NCBI RefSeq assembly: GCF_013283645.1
Contig: NZ_JABEKV010000004.1
Location: 1-64,000 of the forward strand
Source: Sinorhizobium psoraleae
GTDB lineage: Bacteria; Pseudomonadota; Alphaproteobacteria; Rhizobiales; Rhizobiaceae
Direction: 5' to 3'
DNA: 64,000 nucleotides
In this document: positions 37,335 to 48,098 of the stretch, one piece after another
Layout of the letters: the number at the start of each line of letters is the position of its first letter
How positions within the stretch are numbered: the first letter of the stretch is position 1
Position numbers and translations under genes: made by a program
Notes under the pieces: model-generated
The model's input: the letters and a program-made list of their open reading frames with translations, nothing else
Told to the model about the DNA's origin: nothing
The model's database searches: none

Positions 37335-38663
37335 ATGCGCCTGTCCCGCTATTTCATGCCCATCTTGAAGGAAAATCCGAAGGAAGCGGAAATCGTTTCC
37401 CACCGTCTGATGCTGCGGACGGGCATGATCCGCCAGCAGTCTGCCGGCATCTACACCTGGTTGCCGCTCGGCAAGCGCGTGCTCGACAAGGTCAATGCGA
37501 TCATTCGCGAAGAGCAGAACCGCTCCGGCGCGATCGAGCTCCTGATGCCGACGCTGCAGTCGGCAGAGTTGTGGCAGGAGAGCGGGCGCTACGATGCCTA
37601 TGGCAAGGAAATGCTACGCATCAAGGACCGGCAGGACCGGCCGATGCTCTATGGTCCGACGAACGAGGAGATGATCACGGACGTGTTCCGCTCCTATGTG
37701 AGGTCCTACCGCGACTTGCCGCTGAACCTCTATCATATTCAGTTGAAGTTCCGCGACGAGATCCGTCCGCGCTTCGGCACGATGCGTTCGCGCGAGTTCC
37801 TGATGAAGGACGCCTATTCCTTCGATCTTAACCGCGAAGGGGCGGAACATGCCTATAACAGGATGTTCGCCGCCTATTTGCGCACTTTCGCCCGCATGGG
37901 CCTGCGCGCCATTCCGATGCGCGCCGATACCGGCCCCATTGGCGGTAATCTCAGCCACGAGTTCATCATTCTCGCCGACACCGGCGAGTCCGAAGTCTTC
38001 TGCCACAAGGATTTCCTCGGTTTCGATATTCCGGGTGAGGAAACCAATTTCGATGACGTCGCCGGCCTGAAGACGATCTTCGAGAAATGGACGTCGCGCT
38101 ATGCGGCGACGTCGGAAATGCATGACGAGCCGGCTTTCAACGCGATCCCCGAGGGGGAGCGTCTTTCCGCGCGCGGCATCGAGGTTGGCCATATCTTCTA
38201 TTTCGGCACAAAATACTCCGAAGCGATGGGCGCGAAGGTGCTTGGGCCGGACGGCAAGGAGCACGTCGTGCATATGGGCTCCTACGGCATCGGTCCGACG
38301 CGTCTCGTGCCGGCGATCATCGAAGCGTCGCACGACGAAAACGGCATCATCTGGCCGAAGTCGGTCGCCCCGTTCGATGTGGTGGTAATCAACATGAAAG
38401 CGGGTGATGCCGCTTGCGATGCGGCCTGCGGCACGCTCTACTCGGATCTCGGCAAGGCTGGATTCGACGTGCTTCTGGACGATACCGATGATCGCGCCGG
38501 CGCGAAATTCGCGACCGCCGATCTCATTGGCGTTCCGGTTCAGATCATCGTCGGCCCGCGTTCGGTCGCGAATGGCGAGATCGAGGTCAAGGACCGCAAG
38601 ACCGGCGAACGCGAGACGATGACGATCGAAGCCGCGATCAACAAGCTGGTTGCGACCAGATAG
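37335..38663 (+). CDS. proS: Prolyl-tRNA synthetase
   Basis: A class II aminoacyl-tRNA synthetase charging tRNA-Pro. The 442-residue product has [19 protein letters not shown] at the start, the class II motif 1/2 region ([53 protein letters not shown] in part), motif 3 near [15 protein letters not shown], and a C-terminal anticodon-binding domain. It is about 130 residues shorter than E. coli ProS because the insertion editing domain is missing, as is known for alphaproteobacterial enzymes. lolC follows after 17 bp. Confidence 0.96.
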
Positions 38664-38680: not shown

Positions 38681-39991
38681 ATGACCGCGGCGACGGAAGA
38701 CCAGGTGCAGGCTGCCGCTCCGTCTGGGGCGCCTTCCAGTCGTCCCTTTTCCGCGTTCGAGCGCATGGTAGCCTGGCGCTATCTGCGCTCGCGACGGAAG
38801 GAAGCCTTTATCTCGGTCATCGCCGGCTTTTCCTTCATCGGCATCATGCTGGGTGTGGGGACGCTGATCATCGTCATGGCGGTGATGAACGGATTCCGTA
38901 CCGAGCTTATTTCGCGCATCCTCGGCATGAACGGCCATATCATCGTTCAGCCGCTCGATGGACCGCTCACCAACTATGCCGATCTCGCCACCAAGTTTTC
39001 CGCGGTCCCCGGCGTCACCATGGCGATCCCTATGGTCGAAGGGCAGGTTCTCGCCCAAGGGCTGGGTGACGCGTCAACAGGAGCCCTCGTTCGCGGTGTC
39101 CGTGCCGACGACCTCTCGAAGATGAAATCCATCTCGGAGCACATTCAGCAGGGCGATCTTGTCGGCTTTGCGTCGGGCAGCGGCGTCGCCATCGGTTCGC
39201 GTATGGCCGAACAACTGGGCATCCGTGTCGGTGGCACGATCACGCTGACGTCGCCGAATGGCGATGTGACGCCCATGGGCATGAATCCTCGCGTCAAGGC
39301 CTATACGGTCTCGGCGATCTTCGAGATCGGAATGTCGGAATACGACGCAACGATCGTCTTCATGCCGCTCGAGGAGGCGCAGCTTTATTTCAATGCGGAA
39401 GGTCTCGTCCAATCGATCGAGATTTTCGCCGAGCATCCGGACGCCGTCGACGCCTTGCGCAAGCCCCTTGAAGACGCGGCCGGCCGGCAGATCTTCATCA
39501 GCGACTGGCGCGACCGCAACAAGACCTTCTTCTCCGCGCTCGAGGTCGAGCGGAACGTCATGTTCATGATCCTGACGCTGATCGTACTGGTGGCGGCCTT
39601 GAACATTATTTCGGGCCTCATCATGCTGGTGAAGGACAAGGGCAGCGACATCGCGATTCTCAGAACGATGGGCGCGACATCCGGGTCGGTGATGCGCATC
39701 TTCTTCATGACCGGGGCTGCCATCGGCGTCACCGGCACCATCGCCGGGGTGCTCCTTGGCGTCGTTGTCTGTCTCAATATCGAATCGATCCGTCAGTTCT
39801 TCTCCTGGATTTCGGGAACGACGCTCTTCAATCCGGAACTTTATTTCCTGAGTCAGCTTCCTGCGGATATGAATGCCGACGAGACCGTCGCCGTCGTCAT
39901 CATGGCGATTGCCCTTTCCTTCCTTGCCACGATCTTTCCAGCCTGGCGCGCCTCGCGCCTCGATCCGGTGCAGGCCCTGCGATACGAATAA
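38681..39991 (+). CDS. lolC: Lipoprotein-releasing system permease LolC/LolE
   Basis: This inner-membrane permease works with the LolD ATPase to extract outer-membrane lipoproteins. The 436-residue product has an N-terminal cytoplasmic stretch, one membrane helix ([30 protein letters not shown] region), a large periplasmic domain and three C-terminal FtsX-type helices, ending in [13 protein letters not shown]. Alphaproteobacteria have one LolC/E-type gene (LolF-like), so the membrane part is probably a homodimer. lolD follows after 17 bp. Confidence 0.93.
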
Positions 39992-40008: not shown

Positions 40009-40695
40009 ATGAATGCGCGAGTGGCACTGCAGCTCTCCGGCATCGAGCGGCACTATGGCGAGGGCGACACCTACCTCCCGATTCTCAAGGGCGTCGATCT
40101 CACGCTGCGGGCCGGCGAGACGGTCGCGCTCGTGGCACCCTCCGGAACCGGAAAGTCGACGCTCCTGCATATTGCCGGCCTGCTTGAGCATCCGGACGCG
40201 GGTGAAGTCGTCGTGAGCGGGTTGGCCTGTAATGGGCTTAGCGATGACCGGCGCACGGCGATCCGCCGCAAGGAGATCGGCTTCGTCTACCAGTTCCATC
40301 ACCTTCTGCCCGAATTTTCCGCGCTGGAAAACATCATGATGCCGCAACTGATCGCCGGCCTTTCCAAAGCGGAAGCGGCGGAGAGAGCGACGGCGTTGCT
40401 CGATTACATGCGCATCGGGCACCGGGCCAGTCATCGGCCGACCGAACTTTCCGGCGGCGAGCAGCAGCGTGTCGCGATCGCCCGCGCCGTGGCCAATGCG
40501 CCGCTCGTTCTCCTGGCCGATGAGCCGACCGGCAATCTCGATCCCGAGACCGCAGGCTATGTGTTCGAGGCGCTGGAGGCTTTGGCGCGACAGTCGGGGC
40601 TGGCCGCGCTGATCGCGACGCACAACCACGAACTCGCCTCGCTGATGGATCGCCGCGTAACGATCGAGGATGGCAAGGTCGTCGAACTGAAGTAG
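40009..40695 (+). CDS. lolD: Lipoprotein-releasing system ATP-binding protein LolD
   Basis: The ABC ATPase of the lipoprotein exporter. The 228-residue product has Walker [10 protein letters not shown] (43-51), signature [14 protein letters not shown], Walker [14 protein letters not shown] and the H-loop THNHEL. It is the last gene of the proS-lolC-lolD group; the following gene is convergent. Confidence 0.95.
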
Positions 40696-40762: not shown

Positions 40763-41230
40763 TCAGGGAACGATGAGGCCACCGCGATATTCAAGCTCAT
40801 AGGCTTCTTCGCCATCGACGAAAATCACTTCGCGGCCGGAAAAGTGATCTGTCGCGCCGCGGCTGCTATCGACATAGCAACCATAGGCGTGCTGATACTC
40901 CATGCCGCCGAGGAAATGGCGCTTCTCACGATACATCGTCTGTAGCGCGGCCTTGATAACGGCGCCGGCTCGTTCAGCATCGATCAGGTCCGGACGAACG
41001 ATGCGGCCGAAGTAATTCATGGCCCAGCGCGGATTGCCCTCATGCCAGACCGCCTCTTGGCCGGCAAAATCCGTTCCGCCAAAATAGCTGTCGAGATAGC
41101 TCCACACGCCGCGCCGATGTCCGATATCGCGAGAGCCGGGTCTGCAGGCGGGAAGCTCGGCGCCGTTGCCGACATAGGTCTTCGATTTCGCCTCGACGAT
41201 GAAGTCGGTGAGTTCCTGTATGCTGAACAT
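40763..41230 (-). CDS. DUF5680 family protein, probably SOS-regulated
   Basis: A 155-residue soluble protein starting MFSIQELTDFIVEAKSKTYVGNG, which matches my recollection of the DUF5680 family (typically ~150 residues, sometimes next to an XRE domain, absent here). It is rich in aromatic residues (GVWSYLDSYFGGTDFAGQEAVWHEGNP) and ends EEAYELEYRGGLIVP. Function is unknown. GGGAG stands 7-9 bases before the ATG. A perfect LexA box (41285-41299) lies 55 bp upstream in the right place for control of this gene, suggesting induction by DNA damage. Confidence 0.75.
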   Translation of the reverse strand: MFSIQELTDFIVEAKSKTYVGNGAELPACRPGSRDIGHRRGVWSYLDSYFGGTDFAGQEAVWHEGNPRWAMNYFGRIVRPDLIDAERAGAVIKAALQTMYREKRHFLGGMEYQHAYGCYVDSSRGATDHFSGREVIFVDGEEAYELEYRGGLIVP

Positions 41231-41284: not shown

Positions 41285-41299
41285 GAACAAAACAGGAAC
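41285..41299. promoter_or_regulatory. LexA (SOS) box 1
   Basis: GAAC-AAAACAG-GAAC is a perfect alphaproteobacterial LexA site (GAAC-N7-GAAC, the reverse of GTTC-N7-GTTC). It lies 55 bp upstream of the minus-strand DUF5680 gene and about 200 bp from the second SOS box. Confidence 0.8.
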
Positions 41300-41496
41300 A
41301 TACGTGTGAATTGTGTGGCTACGAGTTGCCTGTCTTGGTGTCGACCTCGGGGAAGCCGTGAGTCGTTGGTGCGCTTGGTTTAGCCTTCCTTGACCGAATC
41401 CGGAGCGGCACAGTCGTGGCGCCACGCCGGCTGCGCGGGCGCATTAACCATGAAAGCTGAATAGCGGGACCTTTTATGCAGCCTTGCTTGACTATG

Positions 41497-41511
41497 GAAC
41501 AAAAAAAGAAC
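41497..41511. promoter_or_regulatory. LexA (SOS) box 2
   Basis: GAAC-AAAAAAA-GAAC again fits GAAC-N7-GAAC exactly. It begins 4 bp after a TTGACT -35-like hexamer (41488-41493) and ends 34 bp before the start of the 28-residue peptide, so LexA bound here would block that promoter. Confidence 0.8.
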
Positions 41512-41545
41512 AAAAGAAAAACAATAGCGGAAAAGGAGCCATGTT

Positions 41546-41632
41546 ATGACTGATTTCGTTCGTGATCTCGCCGCCTTCGCCTCGATGAGCCTCTTCATCG
41601 CCAGCATTTCCGTGATTGCGCTCGGATTGTAA
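41546..41632 (+). CDS. 28-residue membrane peptide behind an SOS box
   Basis: The ORF starts at ATG 41546 with AAGGAG at 41533-41538 (spacing 7) and ends at TAA 41630-41632. The product begins MTDFVRDLAAF and continues as one hydrophobic helix (FASMSLFIASISVIALGL) to the C-terminus, so a single-pass inner-membrane peptide is predicted. The upstream LexA box predicts induction by DNA damage. Size, topology and regulation recall Caulobacter SidA (29 residues, inhibits division) and E. coli TisB (toxin), but I cannot show homology to either. No antisense antitoxin RNA is obvious. The RIME-like repeat and dnaE follow. Confidence 0.7.
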   Translation: MTDFVRDLAAFASMSLFIASISVIALGL

Positions 41633-41768
41633 CCCTCCTGCTTCGGTGTCGTCTCGCAGGGTAGGGCCGCGTCGGGTTTGCGCTTTCCTCGGATGCAGTG
41701 TTGAAAAAGACGGCGGTTCCGGTCGTTACACTGGACACGGGGGACCGGACACGGGATACCCTCTGCTC

Positions 41769-41869
41769 CTACAGCGCCGCGCGTCTTGTCAGACGCGCAA
41801 AAGGACGCTGTAGCACTTTGAATTGCTGCATGTTTTGTCCCTGAATCGGCTACGATTTAAGCAACATGC
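41769..41869. repeat. RIME-like palindromic repeat, copy 2
   Basis: Two palindromes as in copy 1: CTACAGCG (41769-41776) with CGCTGTAG (41806-41813) enclosing GCGCGTCT/AGACGCGC, then GCATGTT (41828-41834) with AACATGC (41863-41869) enclosing AATCG/CGATT. The element ends 24 bp before the dnaE start codon, so it forms the dnaE 5' leader or overlaps its promoter. Together with copy 1 this is a dispersed repeat family. Confidence 0.8.
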
Positions 41870-41893: not shown

Positions 41894-45388
<3,495 letters not shown>

Positions 45389-46785: not shown

Positions 46786-48078
46786 TTATTGATCGCGACG
46801 CCGGTGGCCGAAGGTGTAGCCCGTCTCGACGGTTGTCTTGCCGAACTTGTCACGCAGCTTGTTGATCGCATCTTCGGCAGCCGCGCGTCTCGTCGCCCCC
46901 GGGTCCACCAGATCCGGCGGATCGGCAAGACCGGGATCGGACAGGTCGCTAACGCCTATGCCGATGAGCCTGTATCGGGTGCCGTCGGCTTCTTTTTCCA
47001 GAAGCTGAAGGCCGGTGCGGAAGATACGATCCGCCAGGCGCGTCGGGCTGTCGAGCCGCCGGTTACGCGTGCGGGTCTTGAAGTCGGCGGTCTTTAGCTT
47101 GAGCACCACGGTTTGCCCGGCAAGCTCTGCCTTGCGCAGCCGCAGCGCCACCTGTTCGCTGAGCCTCCTCAGATGGGGGATCAGTTCTTCCGGACGCGAG
47201 AGGTCGTCGTTGAATGTGGTTTCCGACGACACGCTTTTCGCTTCCCCGTCCGTTTCCACGATCCGCTCGTCCTGACCGCGCGAGAGGCGATAAAGCCTTT
47301 GGCCCATCGTGCCGTAGCGGCGCATGAGGTCGGCTTCCTCCATCATCTGCAACTGGCCGATCGTGCGAATGCCATCCCGCTCGAGCGTCGCGGCAAAGGC
47401 CTTGCCGACTCCCCAGATCAGCGTCACGGAACGCTCCTTGAGGAAGTCGACGGCCTCGGCCTGTCCGATGACGGAAAAACCTCGCGGCTTCTGCAGGTCG
47501 GAAGCGACCTTGGCGAGGAACTTGCAATAGGACAGGCCGACCGAGACGGTGATGCCGATTTCCCGCTCCACCCGCTTGGCGAACCGGGCGAGCGTTCGGG
47601 CCGGAGGATCATGGTGGAGCCGCTCGGTGCCGCTGAGATCGAGAAAAGCTTCGTCTATCGAAAGCGGCTGCACAAGCGGCGTCAATTCCAGCATCAGCGA
47701 CCGCACTTCGCGCCCGACGCGGGAATATTTCTCCATGTTCGGCTTGATCACGACCGCCTGCGGACAGGCTTCCAGCGCCTTGAACATCGGCATGGCGGAG
47801 CGCACCCCGTGAATGCGGGCGATATAACACGCGGTGGAGACGACGCCGCGTTTACCGCCTCCGATGATCACCGGCTTGTCGGCGAGTTCCGGATCGTCGC
47901 GCTTTTCAATCGAGGCATAGAATGCGTCGCAGTCGATATGCGCCAAGGTCAGCTTGTAGAGTTCGGAATGGCGAAGAAGTCGCGGGCTGCCGCAGGAAAG
48001 GCACCGCCGCGCCGCGACGGTTTGTTCCCTGAAGCAGTCTCGGCAGAAGCCAGGAATCGATGCAGCGCTGTCGGGCAT
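46786..48078 (-). CDS. dinB: DNA polymerase IV with N-terminal zinc-binding segment
   Basis: A Y-family translesion polymerase. The 430-residue product shows the catalytic segments [18 protein letters not shown] and [13 protein letters not shown], and the thumb/little-finger regions to the C-terminus. About 40 residues precede the polymerase fold, with a C-x2-C...C-x2-C pattern (Cys12, Cys15, Cys26, Cys29) that could bind zinc; rhizobial DinB proteins share this extension. A LexA box (48084-48098) ends 5 bp from the start codon, so the gene should be SOS-induced. No Shine-Dalgarno sequence fits between them. Confidence 0.95.
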
Positions 48079-48083
48079 ATCCG

Positions 48084-48098
48084 GAACAAATGTTGAAC
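48084..48098. promoter_or_regulatory. LexA (SOS) box of dinB
   Basis: GAAC-AAATGTT-GAAC fits the alphaproteobacterial LexA site exactly and lies 5 bp upstream of the minus-strand dinB start. It also lies 55 bp before the divergent acetyltransferase start. Confidence 0.88.

Follow-up and report, generated by a model that had tools for sequence, protein, structure and literature searches.

The region just upstream of dnaE1 in Sinorhizobium psoraleae raises the question of whether a 28-codon open reading frame behind a LexA-type operator is a real gene and, if so, what its product would do in a cell with damaged DNA. We analyzed it in a window of 64,000 nucleotides (the whole stretch of DNA under study), which belongs to a genome of 7.4 Mb. 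The closest named DnaE1 locus is that of Sinorhizobium sp. 8-89 (99% over a DnaE1 query of 287 residues). The original prediction had proposed a LexA-controlled peptide gene here, and the hexamer, operator, ribosome-binding site and reading frame on which it was built were all found in place (Table 1).

Table 1. Features of the dnaE1-upstream region (positions in the window).
Feature	Position	Strand	Remarks
proS	37335-38663		
lolC/E	38681-39991		
lolD	40009-40695		
DUF5680 gene	40763-41230	minus	
-35-like hexamer TTGACT	41488-41493	+	fixed spacing ahead of the box
LexA-type operator GAACAAAAAAAGAAC (GAAC-N7-GAAC)	41497-41511	+	starts 49 nt before the peptide ATG
Third, degenerate half-site AAAC	41519-41522	+	continues the 11-nt phase of the two preceding half-sites
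Shine-Dalgarno AAGGAG	41533-41538	+	7 nt before the ATG
Putative SidA-like SOS peptide gene, 28 codons + stop	41546-41632	+	ATG at 41546; profile similarity to SidA
dnaE1, DNA polymerase III alpha subunit	41894-45388	+	NF004226, 1506.8 bits

The predicted product, MTDFVRDLAAFASMSLFIASISVIALGL, consists of 28 residues. It begins with the polar segment MTDFVRD, in which Asp7 is the final charged residue, and residues 8-28 are uncharged by inspection, so that it agrees with SidA of Caulobacter in size and in having a single putative hydrophobic helix. The peptide gave zero matches against Pfam and NCBIfam, and a scan for the sigma-70 consensus did not return a full promoter at the peptide locus. 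dnaE1 is the conserved downstream neighbour and lies outside the peptide gene proper.

Several smaller features were observed around the reading frame. A two-codon mini-ORF (ATG-TTA-TGA, 41541-41549) straddles the ATG of the peptide gene; it is common to close relatives and absent in loci L009 and L011-L030. Between the peptide gene and dnaE1 lies a palindromic, repeat-like element (~41764-41840), the core of which is present in one copy in the window and which may resemble the rhizobial element RIME1. A weak terminator-like stem at 41809-41830, in the same interval, was matched by as many in shuffled sequences. The gap between the peptide gene and dnaE1 is ~100 nt longer in the window and in L031 than in L032-L036.

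The box as such is not a rare motif. In the window, four GAAC-N7-GAAC matches compare with an expectation of 2.39, and four or more were obtained in 16 of 100 shuffles; genome-wide there are 252, a reversed control pattern giving 199. Box statistics alone were therefore rejected as evidence, their frequency being near chance in the window and in the genome, and the weight has to come from conservation. The genome does contain lexA, and a GTTC-N7-GTTC box, GTTCCATATGTGTTC, is located ~45-50 nt ahead of the point where the LexA match begins, which is consistent with the motif being the LexA operator in this genome. It also contains ftsW.

Two further genes in the window have boxes of this type. 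One is the DUF5680 gene (PF18931, 76 bits over 144 of its residues), which is divergent from the peptide gene; its ATG is preceded at a distance of 54 nt by the LexA-type box GAACAAAACAGGAAC (41285-41299). Measured from the peptide ATG, all six of the closest loci (L031-L036) have a perfect box in a similar place, between -193 and -263, and none of the 17 loci L037-L053 does; L005 likewise has one at -257. This gene is a candidate lineage-specific SOS gene. The second is dinB (DNA polymerase IV) on the minus strand; gene and box together span 46786-48098, the box, GAACAAATGTTGAAC, being perfect and occupying 48084-48098, 5 nt ahead of the dinB ATG. dinB would be another SOS-type gene of the window.

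Conservation was first assessed with the single peptide as query. Matches of E 1 or better were obtained in 144 of 297 family genomes, the weakest of them indistinguishable from chance; in the best 30, the ORF was always 28 codons long, the box lay no more than 52 nt from the ATG and the dnaE1 frame was open downstream. Since this sample was picked through the peptide, a second one was selected by the N-terminus of DnaE1 alone. It comprised 80 named loci, which were the best 80 of 133 and thus the nearer relatives by DnaE1. A 28-codon ORF was present in 80/80 (L105 has an alternative in-frame ATG two codons upstream). Within 75 nt before the ATG, 76 loci had a perfect box and the other four a box with one mismatch, and GGAG or AGGA occurred in the last 18 nt before the ATG in all 80.

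The spacing of these elements is also conserved. Perfect boxes start 46-58 nt before the ATG in the 76 loci, and 47-49 nt in 71 of them, and in 74/76 the distance from the first base of TTGAC to the box is exactly 9 nt. With such a spacing, the operator would cover the stretch from -35 to -10, and LexA would block RNA polymerase there. The third half-site is largely conserved as well, at the 11-nt phase, giving the consensus GAACAaaAataGAACAaaataa.AACAtaA, and 29/80 relatives have at least two perfect boxes within 75 nt upstream of the ATG. In L019 and L021 two perfect boxes before the peptide overlap at this phase, and among L236, L251, L254 and L256 two perfect boxes are 16-25 nt apart; double boxes perhaps confer tighter repression.

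The reading frame itself is under selection. Mean pairwise differences at codon positions 1, 2 and 3 were 0.27, 0.05 and 0.48 over the 80 loci, and pN/pS was 0.33 over 1407 pairs with 0.05<pS<0.6. Internal stops occurred at none of the 80 loci in the peptide frame, and at 80/80 and 69/80 in the other two frames. Thr takes the place of Ser/Gly in the peptides of L079 and L084. Constraint thus acts on the protein level. Loss of the frame between species had been set beforehand as the observation that would count against a gene, and it was not found. Together with the position of the box and the Shine-Dalgarno sequence, the conserved frame argues for the predicted LexA-controlled, single-helix peptide gene beside dnaE1.

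Beyond these nearer relatives, 141 family genomes spread evenly over the genera were searched with a profile, and at least 57 had a match immediately ahead of dnaE1 and co-directional with it, eight of these matches being weak (E above 0.001). Among 78 other family genomes with a dnaE1 match, 40 were inspected. A perfect box was present upstream in nine, each time with a small hydrophobic ORF behind it (9/9), and was absent in 31 of these 40 dnaE1 regions lacking an adjacent profile match.

The original prediction also knew of no described peptide at this rhizobial locus, a view that probably needs some correction. A Ribo-seq study published in 2023 reported, for S. meliloti 2011, a novel translated small ORF, sORF25, in the 5'-UTR of dnaE1 (PMC10117765). 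This ORF and the window peptide gene agree in being small, in their position ahead of dnaE1 and in genus. In S. meliloti 4H41 (L038), a 28-residue peptide is encoded in the dnaE1-upstream interval behind two overlapping boxes. As this interval holds further ORFs of at least 20 codons, sORF25 is probably, though not provenly, the same gene as the one in the window. The words SOS, LexA and SidA are absent from the main text of the study. Among the literature matches listed, we found none that links SidA to rhizobia; an earlier mention of homologues in the founding SidA paper or in the 2004 LexA regulon paper is possible.

For some such 5'-UTR ORFs, roles as uORFs have been suggested (PMC10117765), and the peptide gene does precede dnaE1 in the 80 loci selected by DnaE1. 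It could accordingly be a leader ORF of the dnaE1 mRNA: the act of translating it would adjust dnaE1 expression, and its product would be irrelevant. We regard this as unlikely, because the amino acid sequence is constrained while synonymous positions change more freely, and because the gap between the peptide stop and the most upstream in-frame dnaE1 ATG varies from 50 to 647 nt. Nor was the RNA over the ORF and leader (41515-41680) any more structured than shuffled sequences (z 1.11).

Copies located away from dnaE1 bear on the same point. Of 21 tabulated peptide matches that were not adjacent to dnaE1, 16 were fetched, and 11 of these encode a 28-residue peptide that a perfect box precedes by 45-52 nt. 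At locus L326, box and peptide directly follow proS-lolE-lolD and dnaE1 is 330 kb away. A simple leader ORF of dnaE1 would hardly be expected to retain box and peptide at such places. Three other matches (L267, L272 and L276) are box-less relatives of the peptide in outer Rhizobiaceae genomes, for example MRDFLRDLLALAAMSGFLAAAAIWLSQVPA in L276, and two of these three genomes (G078 and G016) have a further copy beside dnaE1. The remaining two of the 16 look like chance. The surroundings of the L272 copy (L336) include a DUF3799 gene that weakly resembles exonuclease VIII, a hint that they may be phage-like.

If the peptide itself is the functional product, the comparison at hand is with SidA, a 29-residue inner-membrane protein of Caulobacter that inhibits division through FtsW (PMC4211646). 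The original prediction had named SidA as an analogue known from elsewhere. By profile and register, the two peptides look homologous. Caulobacter dnaE is CC1926 (PMC1839093) and sidA is CCNA_02004 (PMC11034885), and sidA and the window peptide gene hold the same chromosomal place, upstream of dnaE1.

This arrangement was followed through the Caulobacteraceae, the genomes of which were picked via MreB: identities were 93-100% in a single family (f66) and 74-76% in the family that followed. The dnaE1-upstream stretches of the best 30 of 56 matched genomes were inspected. A peptide of 29-30 residues was found in 24/30, with a perfect box in 18 and a one-mismatch box in six, ~28-65 nt before the peptide start; the lengths depend on the start codon chosen, as several have longer in-frame starts. 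With the patterns used, the peptide was not found in the other six loci. An alignment of 21 of these peptides (L236 and L247 duplicate sequences in it and are left out, as is L250) was compared with NF033228, the NCBIfam model "cell division inhibitor SidA". All 21 matched, that of locus L239 with 59.7 bits at a cut-off of 35.

The rhizobial peptides behaved differently toward this model. At E 10, neither the window peptide nor any of 27 rhizobial members (three identical ones left out) matched NF033228. They are consequently not filed in the SidA equivalog, and we call them SidA-like homologues. Comparison of the two profiles by hhalign nevertheless gave a P of 1e-5 (probability 82%) over 19 ungapped columns that start at the initiator Met. 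On a SidA matrix, the true register was the best of nine, and only 13 of 20,000 column permutations that kept the polarity gradient scored as well; the rhizobial score was negative in absolute terms and far above the permutations (-22.84 vs -57.33). Peptides of the outer Rhizobiaceae act as intermediates, with P 7.7e-12 to the window family and P 8e-6 to SidA, in an alignment of 20 hand-chosen sequences without L313, L325, duplicates and the box-less L267, L272 and L276. In another family of the same order (locus L144), MFKIFVEEAAALASITLFVGMIAIWAQVIPQL is encoded behind a box upstream of dnaE1.

The core common to SidA and the rhizobial peptides is about M....[RK][DE]..A[LF].S...F. Including the dnaE1-upstream locus, the LexA-type box, the similar length (28 and 29 residues) and the polar N-terminus followed by one helix, this likeness suggests that the peptides are homologous, over a short and distant match. 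They also differ. FVWM of SidA corresponds to F[IV]AS in the rhizobial peptides, and the C-terminal half is unlike as well. The contacts with the target may differ with this exchange.

The divergent C-terminal half could also mean that the peptide no longer acts on FtsW and now serves, under SOS control, another membrane complex (that of polar cell-wall synthesis or the Lol exporter, for instance) as a small subunit or regulator. Rhizobia are described as growing from the pole, and the gene at L326 is located behind proS-lolE-lolD, away from dnaE1. We consider such a role improbable. To our knowledge, neither polar cell-wall synthesis nor the Lol exporter has a functional link to the SOS response, and the linkage to lolD can be explained by simple inheritance of gene order.

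A toxin of the TisB type, which would depolarize the membrane and slow the cell rather than block the divisome, has the same outward appearance: SOS control and one short hydrophobic helix, features common to TisB- and DinQ-type peptides of enterobacteria, and a size within the range of TisB. The helix of TisB is amphipathic and charged, however, and its locus is a different one. The window peptide has no charged residue after Asp7, and hence no amphipathic helix of the pore-forming type, and it shares locus and register with SidA. We find this reading very unlikely.

We consider it likely that we are dealing with a genuine gene, which encodes an inner-membrane peptide of 28 residues that is homologous to SidA, though diverged, and serves as a LexA-controlled divisome inhibitor of the SidA type. 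Upon DNA damage, RecA would be activated and LexA cleaved, so that it would leave an operator that appears to overlap the promoter. The peptide would then be made from its strong ribosome-binding site. Its N-terminus MTDFVRD would probably stay at the cytoplasmic face, with the uncharged helix (about residues 8-28) inserted in the inner membrane, where it might bind the late divisome subcomplex FtsW/FtsI/FtsN and keep it inactive. Cell division would be halted until the DNA is repaired.

Functionally, the peptide would join other inhibitors that are set apart from it by their descriptions. SulA, YneA and SosA exceed it in length. DidA, at 71 residues, is independent of the SOS response and binds FtsN (PMC4211646). 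All four belong to the same physiological class, in which DNA damage leads to division arrest (PMC4211646).

The shared place of sidA and the rhizobial gene raises the possibility of a wider distribution. Outside the family, 89 of 260 dnaE1 loci were inspected, mostly the best-scoring ones, and 86 of them were anchored by script. A forward perfect box within 900 nt upstream of dnaE1 was present in 22 of these 86 regions and absent in 64. A hydrophobic ATG ORF of 22-60 codons started 15-100 nt downstream of the box in 21 of the 22 box-bearing regions, as compared to 441 of 6505 background positions, 0/7 reverse-strand boxes and 1/11 boxes with wrong spacing or reversed motif. The sole miss, L173, encodes a similar peptide from a TTG or GTG start. 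Three loci not anchored by script (L145, L166 and L168) showed the same arrangement of box and peptide by eye. The 21 regions carry ten family labels, or twelve with the three found by eye, and are not independent events.

Profile searches alone would hardly have revealed these peptides. Among 385 genomes of the class (that of the window and 384 from outside the family), the profile gave only chance-level matches outside the family, with a best E of 0.008. One such match (G657, E 0.31) proved to be real, being located just upstream of dnaE1. E-values at this level mean that sequence search alone is nearly blind to the wider family.

On this evidence, we lean cautiously towards SidA being the best-known member of an ancestral alphaproteobacterial checkpoint. 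Its effector would be a LexA-controlled one-helix peptide that arose beside dnaE1, was inherited by many families and diverged fast, probably along with its divisome target, so that the version in each lineage escaped annotation. In rhizobia, which grow from the pole, the contact surface within FtsW/FtsI/FtsN may have shifted.

The gene described here, overlooked by NCBIfam and Pfam models, provides a concrete candidate for how rhizobia halt division after DNA damage, and it offers an alternative to the uORF reading of S. meliloti sORF25. The results suggest that the DNA-damage checkpoint is wider in the alphaproteobacteria than annotation shows. If the wider reading is true, the Caulobacter checkpoint becomes a trait common to many alphaproteobacterial families, and these families would provide a natural set of diverged peptides with which to map how a helix of 28 residues silences FtsW.
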